A stretch of 37,642 nucleotides of DNA, taken from NCBI GenBank assembly GCA_014728215.1, contig WJLZ01000134.1, forward strand, positions 1 through 37,642, read 5' to 3'. Positions 3,314-26,823 of this stretch are shown here, piece by piece. This DNA is from Chitinivibrionales bacterium (GTDB taxonomy: Bacteria > Fibrobacterota > Chitinivibrionia > Chitinivibrionales > WJKA01). A program made the position numbers and the translations under genes. Positions within the stretch are counted from its first letter, which is position 1. Every line of letters begins with the position of its first letter. Under the pieces are notes generated by a model, which was given only the letters and a program-made list of their open reading frames with translations, did not search any database and was not told the origin of the DNA.

Positions 3314-3685
3314 TCATTCGATCGTTTTTACAACTTCTTCGGGCTTCTTTACATTTTCGATGTCGGCAATCTTTTCAACCGAAAATTTAACGCCGCCCAT
3401 CTGTGTGGAAAGCAGATTGTATATGAGGGCGATGACGGTATTGAAAATTGCGGCCAGAATCGCATAGATCAGGGGCATGACAACAAGGAACACGCCACCA
3501 AACATGCTGAATGGATTAAAGGGAACATTTTCGGGCATTGAGTTGCTGAAAAAACTCCCCAGGGCCATGAAAATCAAACCAAAAGGAAGCATAAAGATTA
3601 CGCTGATAATAAAAAACAACACAAAGGAATAGAGCGCAACCGTTCCGAGGTCGATTTTTTTAAGTCGGTATTTAGCAATATGCAT
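3314..3685 (-). CDS. Small membrane protein, DUF3566-like
   Basis: About 123 residues from the ATG at 3685, which has a GAGGA ribosome binding site 8-10 bases upstream; a longer in-frame start at 3709 would overlap argD. Two long hydrophobic segments (VALYSFVLFFIISVIFMLPF and a second beginning FGGVFLVVMPLIYAILAAIF) flank a loop with a PENVPFNPFSMFGG stretch. The tail contains LLSTQMGGVKFSVE, which resembles DUF3566-type transmembrane proteins as I remember them. The gene follows argD by 10 bases, so it is probably the last gene of the arg operon. No enzymatic role can be assigned and nothing ties it functionally to arginine synthesis. Confidence 0.75.
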   Translation of the reverse strand: MHIAKYRLKKIDLGTVALYSFVLFFIISVIFMLPFGLIFMALGSFFSNSMPENVPFNPFSMFGGVFLVVMPLIYAILAAIFNTVIALIYNLLSTQMGGVKFSVEKIADIENVKKPEEVVKTIE

Positions 3686-12784: not shown

Positions 12785-12850
12785 CTTCACATACTTTTCA
12801 CCGTCTTTTCACAGAGCTTTCATTGTGCTTTCAATTTGTGGTGGTATCTT
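12785..12850 (+). promoter_or_regulatory. Five 11-bp-phased TTCA half-sites (CreB tag or Pho-box-like) with promoter
   Basis: TTCA occurs at 12786, 12797, 12808, 12819 and 12830, exactly every 11 bases. The first three are TTCAC, giving two overlapping perfect copies of the Cre tag (TTCAC, six bases, TTCAC) known for the CreB response regulator. The last two units, CTTTCAT and CTTTCAA, also resemble PhoB half-sites (CTGTCAT). A -10-like TATCTT lies at 12845-12850, about 11 bases after the last half-site, the geometry of OmpR/PhoB-family activation; TTGTGC (12823-12828) could serve as a poor -35 with a 16-base spacer. creB and creC are encoded at 24250-26417. Binding is inference; the repeat itself is plain in the sequence. 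Confidence 0.7.
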
Positions 12851-15656: not shown

Positions 15657-16511
15657 ATGAAAAAGAAAACTGCGATATCAGAATGGATCATTTTGATTGG
15701 CAATAGTATAAAAGGCCGTGTGTTCCAAATTGTAATTGTAATTGGAATATGCGGCCTTCTGAAACATCATTACAGCACGGCGTCTCCGGATCAGCTCAGG
15801 TGGATCCTTTGCCCCACGGCTTTTGCAACAGAAATGATAACCGGAGAAAACTTTACTTTCGTAAGGAATGAGGGGTATGTAAGCAGCGATCGTTTTCTTG
15901 TGATTGCAAAATCATGCGCGGGAGTCAATTTTATGATCCTGGCAATTATTCTTATCGCATTGGCACATGTTATATCCGCGGGAAAGGAGAGGAATGGGAT
16001 TTACAAAATGATTGGTGCGGTCATGGCCGGTTATGCGGTCACAATAATCGTAAATACGATGCGGATAGCTGGTGCGATTCATCTCTATTCACTTCCAATC
16101 TACGGAGGTGTTGTTACTCCGGCGGCGGTTCACCGGCTTGAAGGTATTCTGGTCTATTTTGTCGCCCTCCGGGTACTGTATGGGGTATCGTTGCGAATCG
16201 GGAAAAAGATAGGGAAAAGCCCCCCGGGATCGTCGGTCATCCACAGCATAATACCTCTGATTGCATATCTTTCTCTTATGATTCTGGTACCGTTATTACG
16301 AGGGGCGTTAAAGGAGAATCCCGAACGATTCTGTTTTCATTCTCTTTTTGTAGCGGGATGTCCGGTTCTGTTTATTCTTATTGTTTGGGGGATAAAAGGG
16401 TTTCGACTGTTGTTCCGCAGTACGCGCATGTGCAGACATCGATTGCACAACCGGAATTCGATTACGATACCGGTGAGAATGATTCATTTGATGAACAGTA
16501 TATTTAAATGA
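15657..16511 (+). CDS. Exosortase (K/N-like), probable dedicated processor of the upstream VIT protein
   Basis: 284 residues with six or more membrane helices. The catalytic triad of the exosortase/archaeosortase family is visible: C87 in KSCAGVNFMILAI, R136 in IVNTMRIAGAIHLY, and H159 in PAAVHRLEGILVYF. The size and single VIT partner recall the exosortase K and N groups; subtype is inference. The core family is about 190 residues; here about 90 more follow with two extra hydrophobic segments (SIIPLIAYLSLMILVPLL and FVAGCPVLFILIVWGIKG). The last 36 codons look wrong: the frame ends in a basic, low-quality tail (RSTRMCRHRLHNRNS) while another frame over 16403-16507 carries a conserved motif. 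The true C-terminus may be reached by a -1 shift near 16395-16403. AGGGA precedes the ATG. Confidence 0.88.
   Translation: MKKKTAISEWIILIGNSIKGRVFQIVIVIGICGLLKHHYSTASPDQLRWILCPTAFATEMITGENFTFVRNEGYVSSDRFLVIAKSCAGVNFMILAIILIALAHVISAGKERNGIYKMIGAVMAGYAVTIIVNTMRIAGAIHLYSLPIYGGVVTPAAVHRLEGILVYFVALRVLYGVSLRIGKKIGKSPPGSSVIHSIIPLIAYLSLMILVPLLRGALKENPERFCFHSLFVAGCPVLFILIVWGIKGFRLLFRSTRMCRHRLHNRNSITIPVRMIHLMNSIFK
16403..16507 (+). other. Out-of-frame coding segment carrying the QYAHxQTSIAxP motif
   Basis: In the -1 frame relative to the exosortase, codons 16418-16453 read QYAHVQTSIAQP, preceded by STVVP and followed by EFDYDTGENDSFDEQYI and a stop. This matches QYAHTQTSIAEP in the 202-residue protein (codons 13008-13043). 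Most differences are synonymous third-position changes (for example GCT/GCG, CAA/CAG, ACC/ACA, GCT/GCA, CCA/CCG), a signature of selection on the protein in this frame. It is either the true 3' end of the exosortase after a frameshift, a short gene from ATG 16358, or the remnant of a paralogue. Confidence 0.65.
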
Positions 16512-17231: not shown

Positions 17232-17487
17232 GTGCCTTCATATCCAGACTTTAAAGATTTATTACGGTTACTCGAAAATAATTCTGTCAGGTACCTGATC
17301 GTCGGCGGATATGCAGTTGCCTTTCATGGGTTCCTCGGCTTACCAAAACATAGATTTATTCTTTGATATCTCCGAAAAGAATGCACAAAAAATCTGCGGT
17401 GTATTGATTAATTTCGGATTTCCCAAACAAGACCTGAAATTAGAACCATTTATGACGCAAGACATATATCACGTTAGTTGGGATTGA
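17232..17487 (+). pseudogene. Broken MNT-type nucleotidyltransferase (antitoxin-like)
   Basis: From GTG 17232 one frame reads PDFKDLLRLLENNSVRYLIV, then GGYAVAFHGFLGLPKH, and stops; the following frame resumes with IDLFFDISEKNAQKICGVLI and ends FMTQDIYHVSWD at 17487. Together they are the N-terminal half of the small nucleotidyltransferase family (GG-x-A near the start and a D-x-D-like element expected near the break, here reduced to IDL). A deletion or shift around 17350 removed the catalytic junction, and the C-terminus is missing. Such proteins often act as antitoxins (MNT) or sit alone. The gene is dead or severely truncated. The next open frame starts two bases after its stop. Confidence 0.6.
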
Positions 17488-17488
17488 A

Positions 17489-17866
17489 ATGAATAGCAAA
17501 ACATCAATTCATCAGCACCATATATCAAAATCTTTGTTGCTGCATTTACTGCCGGGCATACTTACAGGCGCATGTTATTTCTCTCTTATGCCGGTTGCGC
17601 ATAGCCGGGGATACCCTTCCATAATGGCGCTCATGATTGCGGTGGCTCTGGTATTAATCCCTTTTTATGCTGGGATATCTGTTCTATCAGGCGAAAAAGA
17701 AAAATTCGCGGGGCTTTGGGAATCTGGTGTTGTATCGTACTTCTTTGCCAATCCTGTTGCTGTAGTTGCATTGGGGGCACTTAGAGCCTTGTTTGGATTC
17801 CTGTCGGTGACCGGGACCGGAGCATACTATCGATGCTGGAGTAATTCAAACATATCGATTACATAA
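17489..17866 (+). pseudogene. Truncated CPBP-type intramembrane protease-like protein
   Basis: 125 residues with three hydrophobic segments: LLLHLLPGILTGACYFSLMP, then PSIMALMIAVALVLIPFYAG, then FANPVAVVALGALRALFGFL. The first 75 residues resemble the N-terminus of CPBP-family membrane metalloproteases (LPG-x-L, then a Y-P-S-I-M-A-L-like helix and a charged loop SGEKEK). Those proteins are normally above 230 residues and carry EExxxR and HxxxH motifs further on; neither is present, so this is a fragment. The last 25 residues diverge into non-membrane sequence, suggesting a deletion junction. No ribosome binding site is evident. Confidence 0.5.
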
Positions 17867-24249: not shown

Positions 24250-25701
24250 CTATGCAAGCGGCACACCAAAAACCGCAACTGCGCCGCTGCCGGCGTTATT
24301 GTTATCGACCGAAATGGCTCCTCCGTGCAACTCTGCGACCTCCCCCACAAAGCTCAATCCCAGCCCGGTGCTTTTTTTGTTGGTATCCAGCCGTTTCAGT
24401 GAATAGAACCGGTCGAAAATTTTTGTGCGGGCATAGTCGGGTATTCCCGGGCCGGAATCGGTTATTATGATTTGTGCTGTCGTATCATGCTTGTTTGCGG
24501 TAATACCGATTGCACCCTTGAAAGGGGAAAACTCGACCGCATTCTGGACAAGGTTGGCAAGTGCCTGACGAAGTAAAAAACGTTCGCCCCGTACGACAAG
24601 CTTTTCTGAAAGTTCCATTTGCAGCGATAATTGCTTTTTTTCTATCAATGGTCTGCTGTCGTTGACAACTTCTTTGGCAAGTGCGCCAATATCGACAAAC
24701 TCGATATCGCGAAGCTCTTTTCTGTTTTCGAGTGCGGCCAGTTGCAGCATCCGGTCGACAATGTTTTGAATACGTATGGTTTCGGAGCGGATATTTTCGA
24801 GGAATTTTTTCCGCCGTTCAGGATCCATCTTTTCATCCATCAACTCCGCGGCTCCCTGAATCGCGGAAACCGGGCTTTTTATTTCATGCGTGAGAGTCTG
24901 GACATACTGTTCGACATATTTTTTGCCCTCAAGGGTATCCCTCATCTCCTCGAAAGCCTCACCCATGGTGTCGATTTCGCTTTTGCCGAGTATTATTTCC
25001 CCTTTTGACCGGGGCCTTCGTGCATTGCTTCCATCCTTTACCGCCCGGGCATAAGAGGTCAATCTGGCAATTGGTGTCGTTACCCAGATTGAAAGAAGAT
25101 ATCCGATTACTGCAACCCCGCATACAACCAGAAGTCCGGCGATCAGAATATCACGGCGGCCTTTCTGGACAAAGAAACTTACGCTGCCGATAGGTTTTGA
25201 GACGGTCAGCACACCGGCGAGCCTGTTTTGTATGAAAAGCGGTGATGCCACATAGAGAACCGTTGTTCTTTCATCACCAAGGGTCTGTGGGGTCGCACGG
25301 GCGCCATAATTGCCCTGTAAAGTTAGCCTGACATCATTCCACTGGGAAAAATCTGTGCCTTCAGCCTTACCATTATCGGAATCGTAAATGACGATTCCCG
25401 CGGTATCGGTAATATACACCCGAATATTCATCCGCGTTTTAAGGAGATCATAGATCTCGGCGGATATCTCCTGTTGTGATGCATTGTGCATTACCCGTTC
25501 GAGTTGATCGACATCCAGGGTGTCGCCATGGGCCTGAATGCTTACCATCGATGAAAGCAGGGTGCCGGTATCAACCAGCGATTCCTCCATAGATTTAAGG
25601 TAATGGGGACGAAGGTCTCTGAGTACCCAGTTGATCAGGTAGGCAAAGCCGAGGATCGCGACAGTAAGAAAACCGATCAGGATACGGGTACGGATTTTCA
25701 T
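24250..25701 (-). CDS. creC: Sensor histidine kinase CreC
   Basis: 483 residues (E. coli CreC is 474). Helix 1 at about 8-27; a periplasmic sensor domain with the CreC-like VYITDTAGIVIYDSDNG; a second helix at about 185-207; HAMP region; dimerisation box with phospho-accepting H272 in LTHEIKSPVSAIQGAAEL; then the ATPase boxes NLVQNAVEFSP (N), DSGPGIPD (G1) and FDRFYSLKRL followed by STGLGLSFVGEVAELHGG. It phosphorylates CreB. Its ATG overlaps the creB stop by four bases. CreBC responds to growth conditions and cell-wall stress in enterics and Aeromonas; the signal here is unknown. No creD gene is in the window. Confidence 0.92.
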   Translation of the reverse strand: MKIRTRILIGFLTVAILGFAYLINWVLRDLRPHYLKSMEESLVDTGTLLSSMVSIQAHGDTLDVDQLERVMHNASQQEISAEIYDLLKTRMNIRVYITDTAGIVIYDSDNGKAEGTDFSQWNDVRLTLQGNYGARATPQTLGDERTTVLYVASPLFIQNRLAGVLTVSKPIGSVSFFVQKGRRDILIAGLLVVCGVAVIGYLLSIWVTTPIARLTSYARAVKDGSNARRPRSKGEIILGKSEIDTMGEAFEEMRDTLEGKKYVEQYVQTLTHEIKSPVSAIQGAAELMDEKMDPERRKKFLENIRSETIRIQNIVDRMLQLAALENRKELRDIEFVDIGALAKEVVNDSRPLIEKKQLSLQMELSEKLVVRGERFLLRQALANLVQNAVEFSPFKGAIGITANKHDTTAQIIITDSGPGIPDYARTKIFDRFYSLKRLDTNKKSTGLGLSFVGEVAELHGGAISVDNNNAGSGAVAVFGVPLA

Positions 25702-26417
25702 AATCCCTCTCTCAGCAGGTACCCGAATCCCCGGCGCGTTTCAATGGGGTCCAGAGCAGGATCGGATGCACGTAGCTTTGCCCTGATAGCCTTAATATGG
25801 GCATCCACGGTCCGTTCGGTGCTGAATCCGGGCTCATCCCAGGCCAGGTCCATAAGCTCACTGCGGGAATATACCCGTCCGGGGCTTTGAACAAGAATTT
25901 TCAGGATTTTGTATTCATACAGCGAAAGATTGAGCGGCTTTTGGGAAAAAGTAATCGTCTTGGTGGGTTCGTCAATAACAAAGAGCCTGTCGTCATTGTC
26001 AAAACATTCATCAGGGGGTTCGTTATTAATTGAAGGCATTGTCGTGGTTCGTCGAAGGATCGCTTTGATTCGGGCGGTAAGCTCCCGGGGGCTGAACGGC
26101 TTGACAACATAGTCGTCGGCGCCGATTTCCAGGCCCACGACCCGATCGATCTCTTCATTGCGGGCGGTTAAGAAAATTATTGGTATCGAGGATTCTTTTC
26201 GAATCTGTTTGCACAGCTCGAATCCGTTGAGGTCAGGAAGGCCGATGTCGAGTACGATCAGGTCAAACTGCTCGTGGGCCAGTTCATCCAGAGCTTTGTG
26301 TGCGGTATCAGCCCATACGGGGCTAAAGCCTTCGGTGGTCAGGGCATAGGTGATGTTGTCTGCAATAGCCGCTTCATCGTCGACCACCAGTATTTTCTGT
26401 TTTTGATCGGAATTCAT
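25698..26417 (-). CDS. creB: Response regulator CreB
   Basis: 239 residues, OmpR/PhoB family. Receiver domain 9-120: acidic pocket VVDDEAAIAD, phospho-acceptor D57 in DLIVLDIGLPDLNG, conserved T in IIFLTARN, K in YVVKPFSPREL. The winged-helix domain follows from about 155 (LNLSLYEYKILKILVQSPG, SRSELMDLAWD, ERTVDAHIKAIRAKLRA). AGGGATGG precedes the ATG. CreB proteins bind TTCAC direct repeats spaced at 11 bases, exactly the arrangement at 12785-12839 in this window. Nearest neighbours are the hemerythrin gene 10 bases upstream and creC. Confidence 0.92.
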   Translation of the reverse strand: MNSDQKQKILVVDDEAAIADNITYALTTEGFSPVWADTAHKALDELAHEQFDLIVLDIGLPDLNGFELCKQIRKESSIPIIFLTARNEEIDRVVGLEIGADDYVVKPFSPRELTARIKAILRRTTTMPSINNEPPDECFDNDDRLFVIDEPTKTITFSQKPLNLSLYEYKILKILVQSPGRVYSRSELMDLAWDEPGFSTERTVDAHIKAIRAKLRASDPALDPIETRRGFGYLLREGL

Positions 26418-26427
26418 GGATCCATCC

Positions 26428-26823
26428 CTATTTCGGGCGCAATTTTTTTACCGCCTCTGCATATTTTTCATCGCTGATTCTACTGTGTTCGGCCAGCCAC
26501 CAGATGAGAAAATTGCGGAGTTTTAATGGGTTAAGTTTCCCTTTTTCAAAATCTTCAAGAAAGAGTACAAAGCGTTCGCCCGCTTGCTCGTGGTCGGCTT
26601 GATGTTCCGTGAATCCGGGAATTTTATACATCCTGATAAAATGCTCTTCGGAGGTGAAATGAAAAAGAAGATAGGCTTCGATTTCTTCAAGAAGGCGTTT
26701 TGTCCTTTCGTAATCCGTAACCGTGCCGGTAGTTTCGATTCTATCGAACAGCGAATAGAGATACCGGTGCTGCTCATCCATTTCAGGGATTCCAAGAATA
26801 TGACGGTCGGGTAGATTTTCCAT
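26428..26823 (-). CDS. Bacteriohemerythrin
   Basis: 131 residues, one hemerythrin domain. All seven di-iron ligands are present: H19 (MDEQHRYLYSLFD), H55 and E59 (HFTSEEHF), H74 and H78 (FTEHQADHEQ), H113 and D118 (LAEHSRISDEKY). Bacteriohemerythrins bind oxygen at a non-haem di-iron site and serve in oxygen sensing, storage or delivery. No signal peptide, so cytoplasmic. It lies between the TPR giant and creB in one tight minus-strand run. An oxygen or redox input to the CreBC pair is an attractive guess, not shown. Ribosome binding site weak. Confidence 0.92.
   Translation of the reverse strand: MENLPDRHILGIPEMDEQHRYLYSLFDRIETTGTVTDYERTKRLLEEIEAYLLFHFTSEEHFIRMYKIPGFTEHQADHEQAGERFVLFLEDFEKGKLNPLKLRNFLIWWLAEHSRISDEKYAEAVKKLRPK

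Follow-up and report, generated by a model that had tools for sequence, protein, structure and literature searches.

The window, a 37,642-nucleotide stretch of a Chitinivibrionales genome, contains a putative three-gene operon preceded by a phased repeat and a predicted -10 element, as well as the two-component pair creBC (Table 1). TTCA occurs in the repeat at 12786, 12797, 12808, 12819, and 12830, in steps of exactly 11 bp. The first three units read TTCAC and thereby form two overlapping exact copies of the cre tag TTCACN6TTCAC, at 12786 and 12797, while units four and five read TTCAT and TTCAA rather than TTCAC. Counted from the first base of the last TTCA, the TATCTT hexamer begins 15 bp further on, which leaves a gap of 11 bases after that TTCA. 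The original prediction had described both this phasing and a -10 element about 11 bases past the array, and each was confirmed in the sequence. TTCA was the sole tetramer in the window with five copies at 10-, 11-, or 12-bp steps, and five-copy tetramers at 11-bp steps appeared in 0 of 150 simulated windows (third-order Markov).

Table 1 Features of the putative operon, its promoter, and the creBC region.
Feature	Position	Strand	Basis or description
Five-unit array, putative operator	12786..12834	+	Units TTCACAT, TTCACCG, TTCACAG, TTCATTG, TTCAATT
-10 element TATCTT, predicted	12845..12850	+	Consensus match and comparative spacing
First gene of putative operon, 202 aa	12918..13526	+	No known family; AGGAGG precedes start
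VIT and VWA protein, 669 aa	13626..15635	+	VPEPG...hydrophobic...RK C-terminal tail, PEP-CTERM-like
Exosortase K (XrtK)	15657..16511	+	TIGR04287 109.5 bits (cut-off 55)
creC, sensor histidine kinase	24250..25701	-	NF008312 554 bits (cut-off 356)
creB, response regulator, proposed reader of the array	25698..26417	-	NF008296 309.6 bits (cut-off 273)
Bacteriohemerythrin-like gene	26428..26823	-	10 bp upstream of creB

Putative operon. A longer, TTG-started ORF from 12759, which would extend across the array, is unlikely. The XrtK ortholog adjoins a candidate sorted substrate with a VPEPG-hydrophobic-RK end, as expected of an exosortase K/PEP-CTERM-type pair. The last ~35 codons of xrtK (16396-16508) look out of frame, and the other frame encodes VPQYAHVQTSIAQPEFDYDTGENDSFDEQYI, similar to VQQYAHTQTSIAEPHG of the 202-aa protein; a frameshift or partial duplication at this 3' end is possible. 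Further along, 17250-17490 resembles, as judged by eye, a broken nucleotidyltransferase gene, possibly an AbiEii-type remnant.

Regulators. The products of creB and creC, which the original prediction had recognized, both passed the NCBIfam equivalog cut-offs. The host thus has a CreB ortholog, 49% identical to E. coli CreB, and the bacteriohemerythrin-like gene is probably co-transcribed with it. A domain search of the ~96%-complete genome returned two Trans_reg_C matches, CreB and PhoB. The PhoB assignment is that of an OmpR-type protein encoded in the pst operon; the family it matched best was PhoB at 247.5 bits, a score below the strict cut-off of 296. The 5.0-Mb genome, which has many histidine kinase candidates, yielded two OmpR/PhoB-type DNA-binding proteins in all. 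No match to creD was found in the same genome at ~96% completeness.

Occurrence of the motif in the host genome

We searched the host genome (G000; 5.0 Mb, about 96% complete) for the bare pair TTCACN6TTCAC, as the original prediction had proposed. It matched 21 times (two of them in the array), vs 4 times for the reversed control. The 19 pairs outside the array lay mostly within long stop-free frames, and at none of them did we see a third unit together with the right distance to a -10; the bare tag was dropped as a regulon predictor. Three phased TTCA units were present at the array and at one other site (C141) in the whole genome, and three units followed by TATNNT at the array's spacing, with zero mismatches, occurred once, at the array itself. 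The bare pair is therefore scattered and not diagnostic, and the phased array with its -10 is unique in the genome when no mismatch is allowed.

TTCA arrays at creD and VIT genes across Fibrobacterota

The comparison covered 101 Fibrobacterota genomes, of which 11 had four phased TTCA units and 10 a close CreC. Such arrays occurred in 7/10 genomes with creC vs 4/91 without it (Fisher p about 2e-6, computed over related genomes that are not independent), and the association spanned several families. Seven four-unit arrays lay directly upstream of creD (G026, G039, G080, G083, G090, G092, and G020), and an eighth creD (G089) had three units in the same place. In G003, creD was preceded by three TCCA units instead of TTCA, with the register unchanged. 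Counting this variant, each of the eight genomes that have creC as well as creD carried an array of 3-5 units at creD (8/8), so that creD in the creBC-bearing relatives has an architecture like that of the host array. For G020, whose creD has the array too, no creC was found; the assembly is 69% complete. By comparison, six creD genes from genomes in which no creC was found (G095, G078, G023, G024, G038, and G033) had an array at none. The distance from the start of the last unit to TATNNT was exactly 15 bp in the window and in every array-bearing creD promoter, if the degenerate last units of G026 and G039 are counted.

The other four-unit arrays in genomes without creC were set aside individually: that of G011 falls within a coding ORF, that of G071 is a simple tandem repeat, and that of G030 is intergenic but has no -10 at the expected distance. 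The G030 site (L102 7435-7504) is a long intergenic run of TTCAC, with four copies at 11-bp steps and two more, in a genome with no close creC. G002 has a five-unit CreB-type array with one TCCA unit that adjoins the 3' end of creC (L090 10080-10140, G002:C93). It points into a short region that looks empty apart from a ribosome-binding site and a 7-codon ORF. Because no creD was found in G002, this array may be what is left of the promoter of a creD since lost. G003 encodes three creC paralogs (L091, L092, and L093), and G026 has a further array ahead of a glycosyl-hydrolase-18-like gene near creC.

The cre/blr tag TTCACN6TTCAC is the CreB/BlrA motif of gammaproteobacteria, with creD as its target. 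Between creC and creD, E. coli K-12 has TTCAC, TTCAC, TTCA, and CCCA at 47, 36, 26, and 15 bp before TATCCT. The host array shares with this system the unit sequence, the 11-bp step, and the place upstream of a TATCCT-like -10, and the degenerate third and fourth E. coli units keep nearly the host register. It differs in having five strong units vs two, in its occurrence in Fibrobacterota, and in a VIT-exosortase target rather than creD. Judged against the E. coli layout, the window array is a lengthened version of an already known type of promoter, one in which the proximal units are strong.

The original prediction had made conservation of the array upstream of the orthologous operon in relatives its touchstone; among the phylum genomes searched, no orthologous VIT-XrtK operon was found with which the array could be compared. 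XrtK itself is rare in the phylum, with three genomes above the TIGR04287 cut-off. In G103 and G110 it neighbors a large membrane protein with many spans, and the short stretches read showed no VIT partner. Relatives' VIT genes, found by similarity to the VIT gene of the window, had no arrays at the loci fetched, except in G001, where the array is off-register and downstream. G039, of a different family from the host, has a second CreB-type promoter (TTCAC-TTCAC-TTCAT-TACA, with TATTCT at the host array's distance) 75 bp before a VIT gene (L154 6274-8559, G039:C200). The 761-aa product scored 43.3 bits to PF08487 and 95.3 bits to TIGR04477 (below the cut-off of 250), and ends in a DEPE-hydrophobic-basic tail of exosortase type. 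With this second promoter ahead of a VIT gene, the predicted CreB-to-VIT link recurs and seems less likely to be an accident, with two cases still being few. Across relatives the array was conserved at creD in creC-bearing genomes, and additionally at one VIT gene in G039, rather than at an orthologous VIT-XrtK operon.

Candidate readers of the array and direction of control

We consider the array probably the operator of a CreB-dependent promoter that would switch on the 202-aa gene, the VIT/VWA gene, and xrtK as one operon. CreBC would then probably control an operon for surface-protein sorting in place of its usual target creD. CreC, encoded on the same contig, would phosphorylate CreB, and CreB~P would bind the 11-bp direct repeats head-to-tail along a single side of the helix. 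In this arrangement the proximal units would substitute for a -35 element, and bound CreB would bring RNA polymerase to the TATCTT -10, turning on all three genes as a single operon. In this scheme we infer CreB binding, activation, the operon structure, and the signal; the array, its spacing, the genes, the association with creD and creC, the two candidate regulators, and the different pst repeat are seen in the sequences. CreB, the reader named in the original prediction, is likely and the best supported of the candidates, given the creD arrays in relatives with creC, elimination of other regulators, and the similar creD layout in E. coli.

Repression. The direction of control is a separate matter, and in S. 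maltophilia, where creD is under negative CreBC regulation, deletion of creBC raises creD expression (PMC4689548). Activation of the host operon is therefore not certain. We nevertheless find it unlikely that CreB binds the array but represses the operon, or both represses and activates it: creD is activated by CreBC in E. coli, Aeromonas, and P. aeruginosa (PMC4689548), and an array that stops 11 bp short of the -10, where it replaces the -35, is in the usual position for an OmpR-family activator.

PhoB. With PhoB the only OmpR-type regulator besides CreB found in the genome, the array could in principle be read by PhoB and the operon belong to the phosphate regulon. Like the array, the Pho box of PhoB/PhoP consists of 11-bp direct repeats just upstream of a -10 and serves a winged-helix regulator of the OmpR family. 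The host pst unit differs, however, being CTAACATAA and lying at another distance from a -10-like element. The region upstream of the host pst operon reads CAAACATAACT-CTAACATAATA-CTAGCATTATA (units CAAACAT/CTAACAT/CTAGCAT at 11-bp steps), and that of G002, from the same family as the host, reads CTAACACAATT-CTAACGCAACG-CTTACATAACC (units CTAACAC/CTAACGC/CTTACAT, not TTCA). Three CTAACATAA-type units at 11-bp steps precede pstS in each case (L302 about 3428-3465, G000:C26; L305, upstream of pstS). Judged by position and pattern, these repeats are the probable PhoB operator of the clade. The TTCA-type array does not match them, no TTCA array was present at pst, and in relatives TTCA arrays track creD and creC. 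A Planctomycetota gene resembling a Na/Pi cotransporter, identified by eye, does carry TTCA arrays (L177 and L233), and PhoB-type regulators in other bacteria may therefore recognize units of this kind. PhoB, formerly the chief alternative, is thus disfavored, and its control of the host operon is improbable. With CreB and PhoB the only regulators found and the pst repeat being different, elimination points to CreB as the likely reader, an argument that is strong but not final at 96% genome completeness.

Other regulators. In a genome about 96% complete, an OmpR-type regulator or creD could be absent from the assembly, and outside this phylum TTCA arrays are apparently used by different regulators. 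We scanned about 85,000 species genomes across phyla for four TTCA units followed by TATNNT. Among the matches listed, most were from Firmicutes, and the array with its spacing also occurred in Nitrospirota and others at unrelated genes, which by eye, from their first residues, resemble VTC, HtrA, MMPL, Na/Pi-cotransporter, and response regulator genes. An array with a -10 so placed therefore seems to be a general arrangement for activators of the OmpR family, not one exclusive to CreB; as other bacteria have a like layout at other genes, it signals CreB within this phylum only. Two arguments consequently carry the assignment to CreB, namely the association seen across the phylum and the elimination of other regulators. 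That a missing or different regulator reads the host array is very unlikely in view of the two Trans_reg_C matches in the genome and the creC association over several families. Two-unit tags do arise by chance in coding DNA, but a chance periodicity without function has a negligible probability here: five exact units with creD-type -10 spacing are unique in the genome, and the simulated windows had no five-unit array at 11-bp steps.

A proposed link between CreBC and surface-protein sorting

With CreB as the likely reader, the host, where no creD was found, would have in the VIT-XrtK operon its best CreB target and perhaps its only strong one. The arrangement recalls the proteobacterial dedicated sortase system (regulator TIGR03787, kinase TIGR03785, and VIT target TIGR03788), in which a VIT/VWA target is likewise tied to a two-component system. 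Unlike that system, the host has an exosortase in place of a sortase, and its CreBC is encoded on the opposite strand, some 8 kb away from the operon. Scores to the three families were 156, 136.8, and 415.8 bits, below the respective cut-offs of 335.7, 612.2, and 551.65 (for regulator and kinase by a wide margin), which places the locus outside the dedicated sortase families.

CreBC and exosortase/VIT systems are both conserved and poorly understood, and none of the papers searched names CreBC and exosortase together. More tentatively, CreBC in Fibrobacterota could act as a switch that senses the envelope, its output having shifted repeatedly from creD to surface-protein systems of the VIT/exosortase kind, with the host VIT-XrtK operon as its sole strong target; we hold this broader proposal to be possible, and somewhat doubtful. 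If true, the host would have a dedicated exosortase under two-component control, a counterpart of the sortase systems that marine proteobacteria have. The comparisons supply a working motif for CreB targets in Fibrobacterota, namely 3-5 TTCA units at 11-bp steps with the last unit 15 bp before TATNNT. The Cre regulon would thereby extend to a phylum beyond Proteobacteria, and its proposed link to an exosortase suggests that a VIT protein sorted by this enzyme could have a role in the response that CreC senses.
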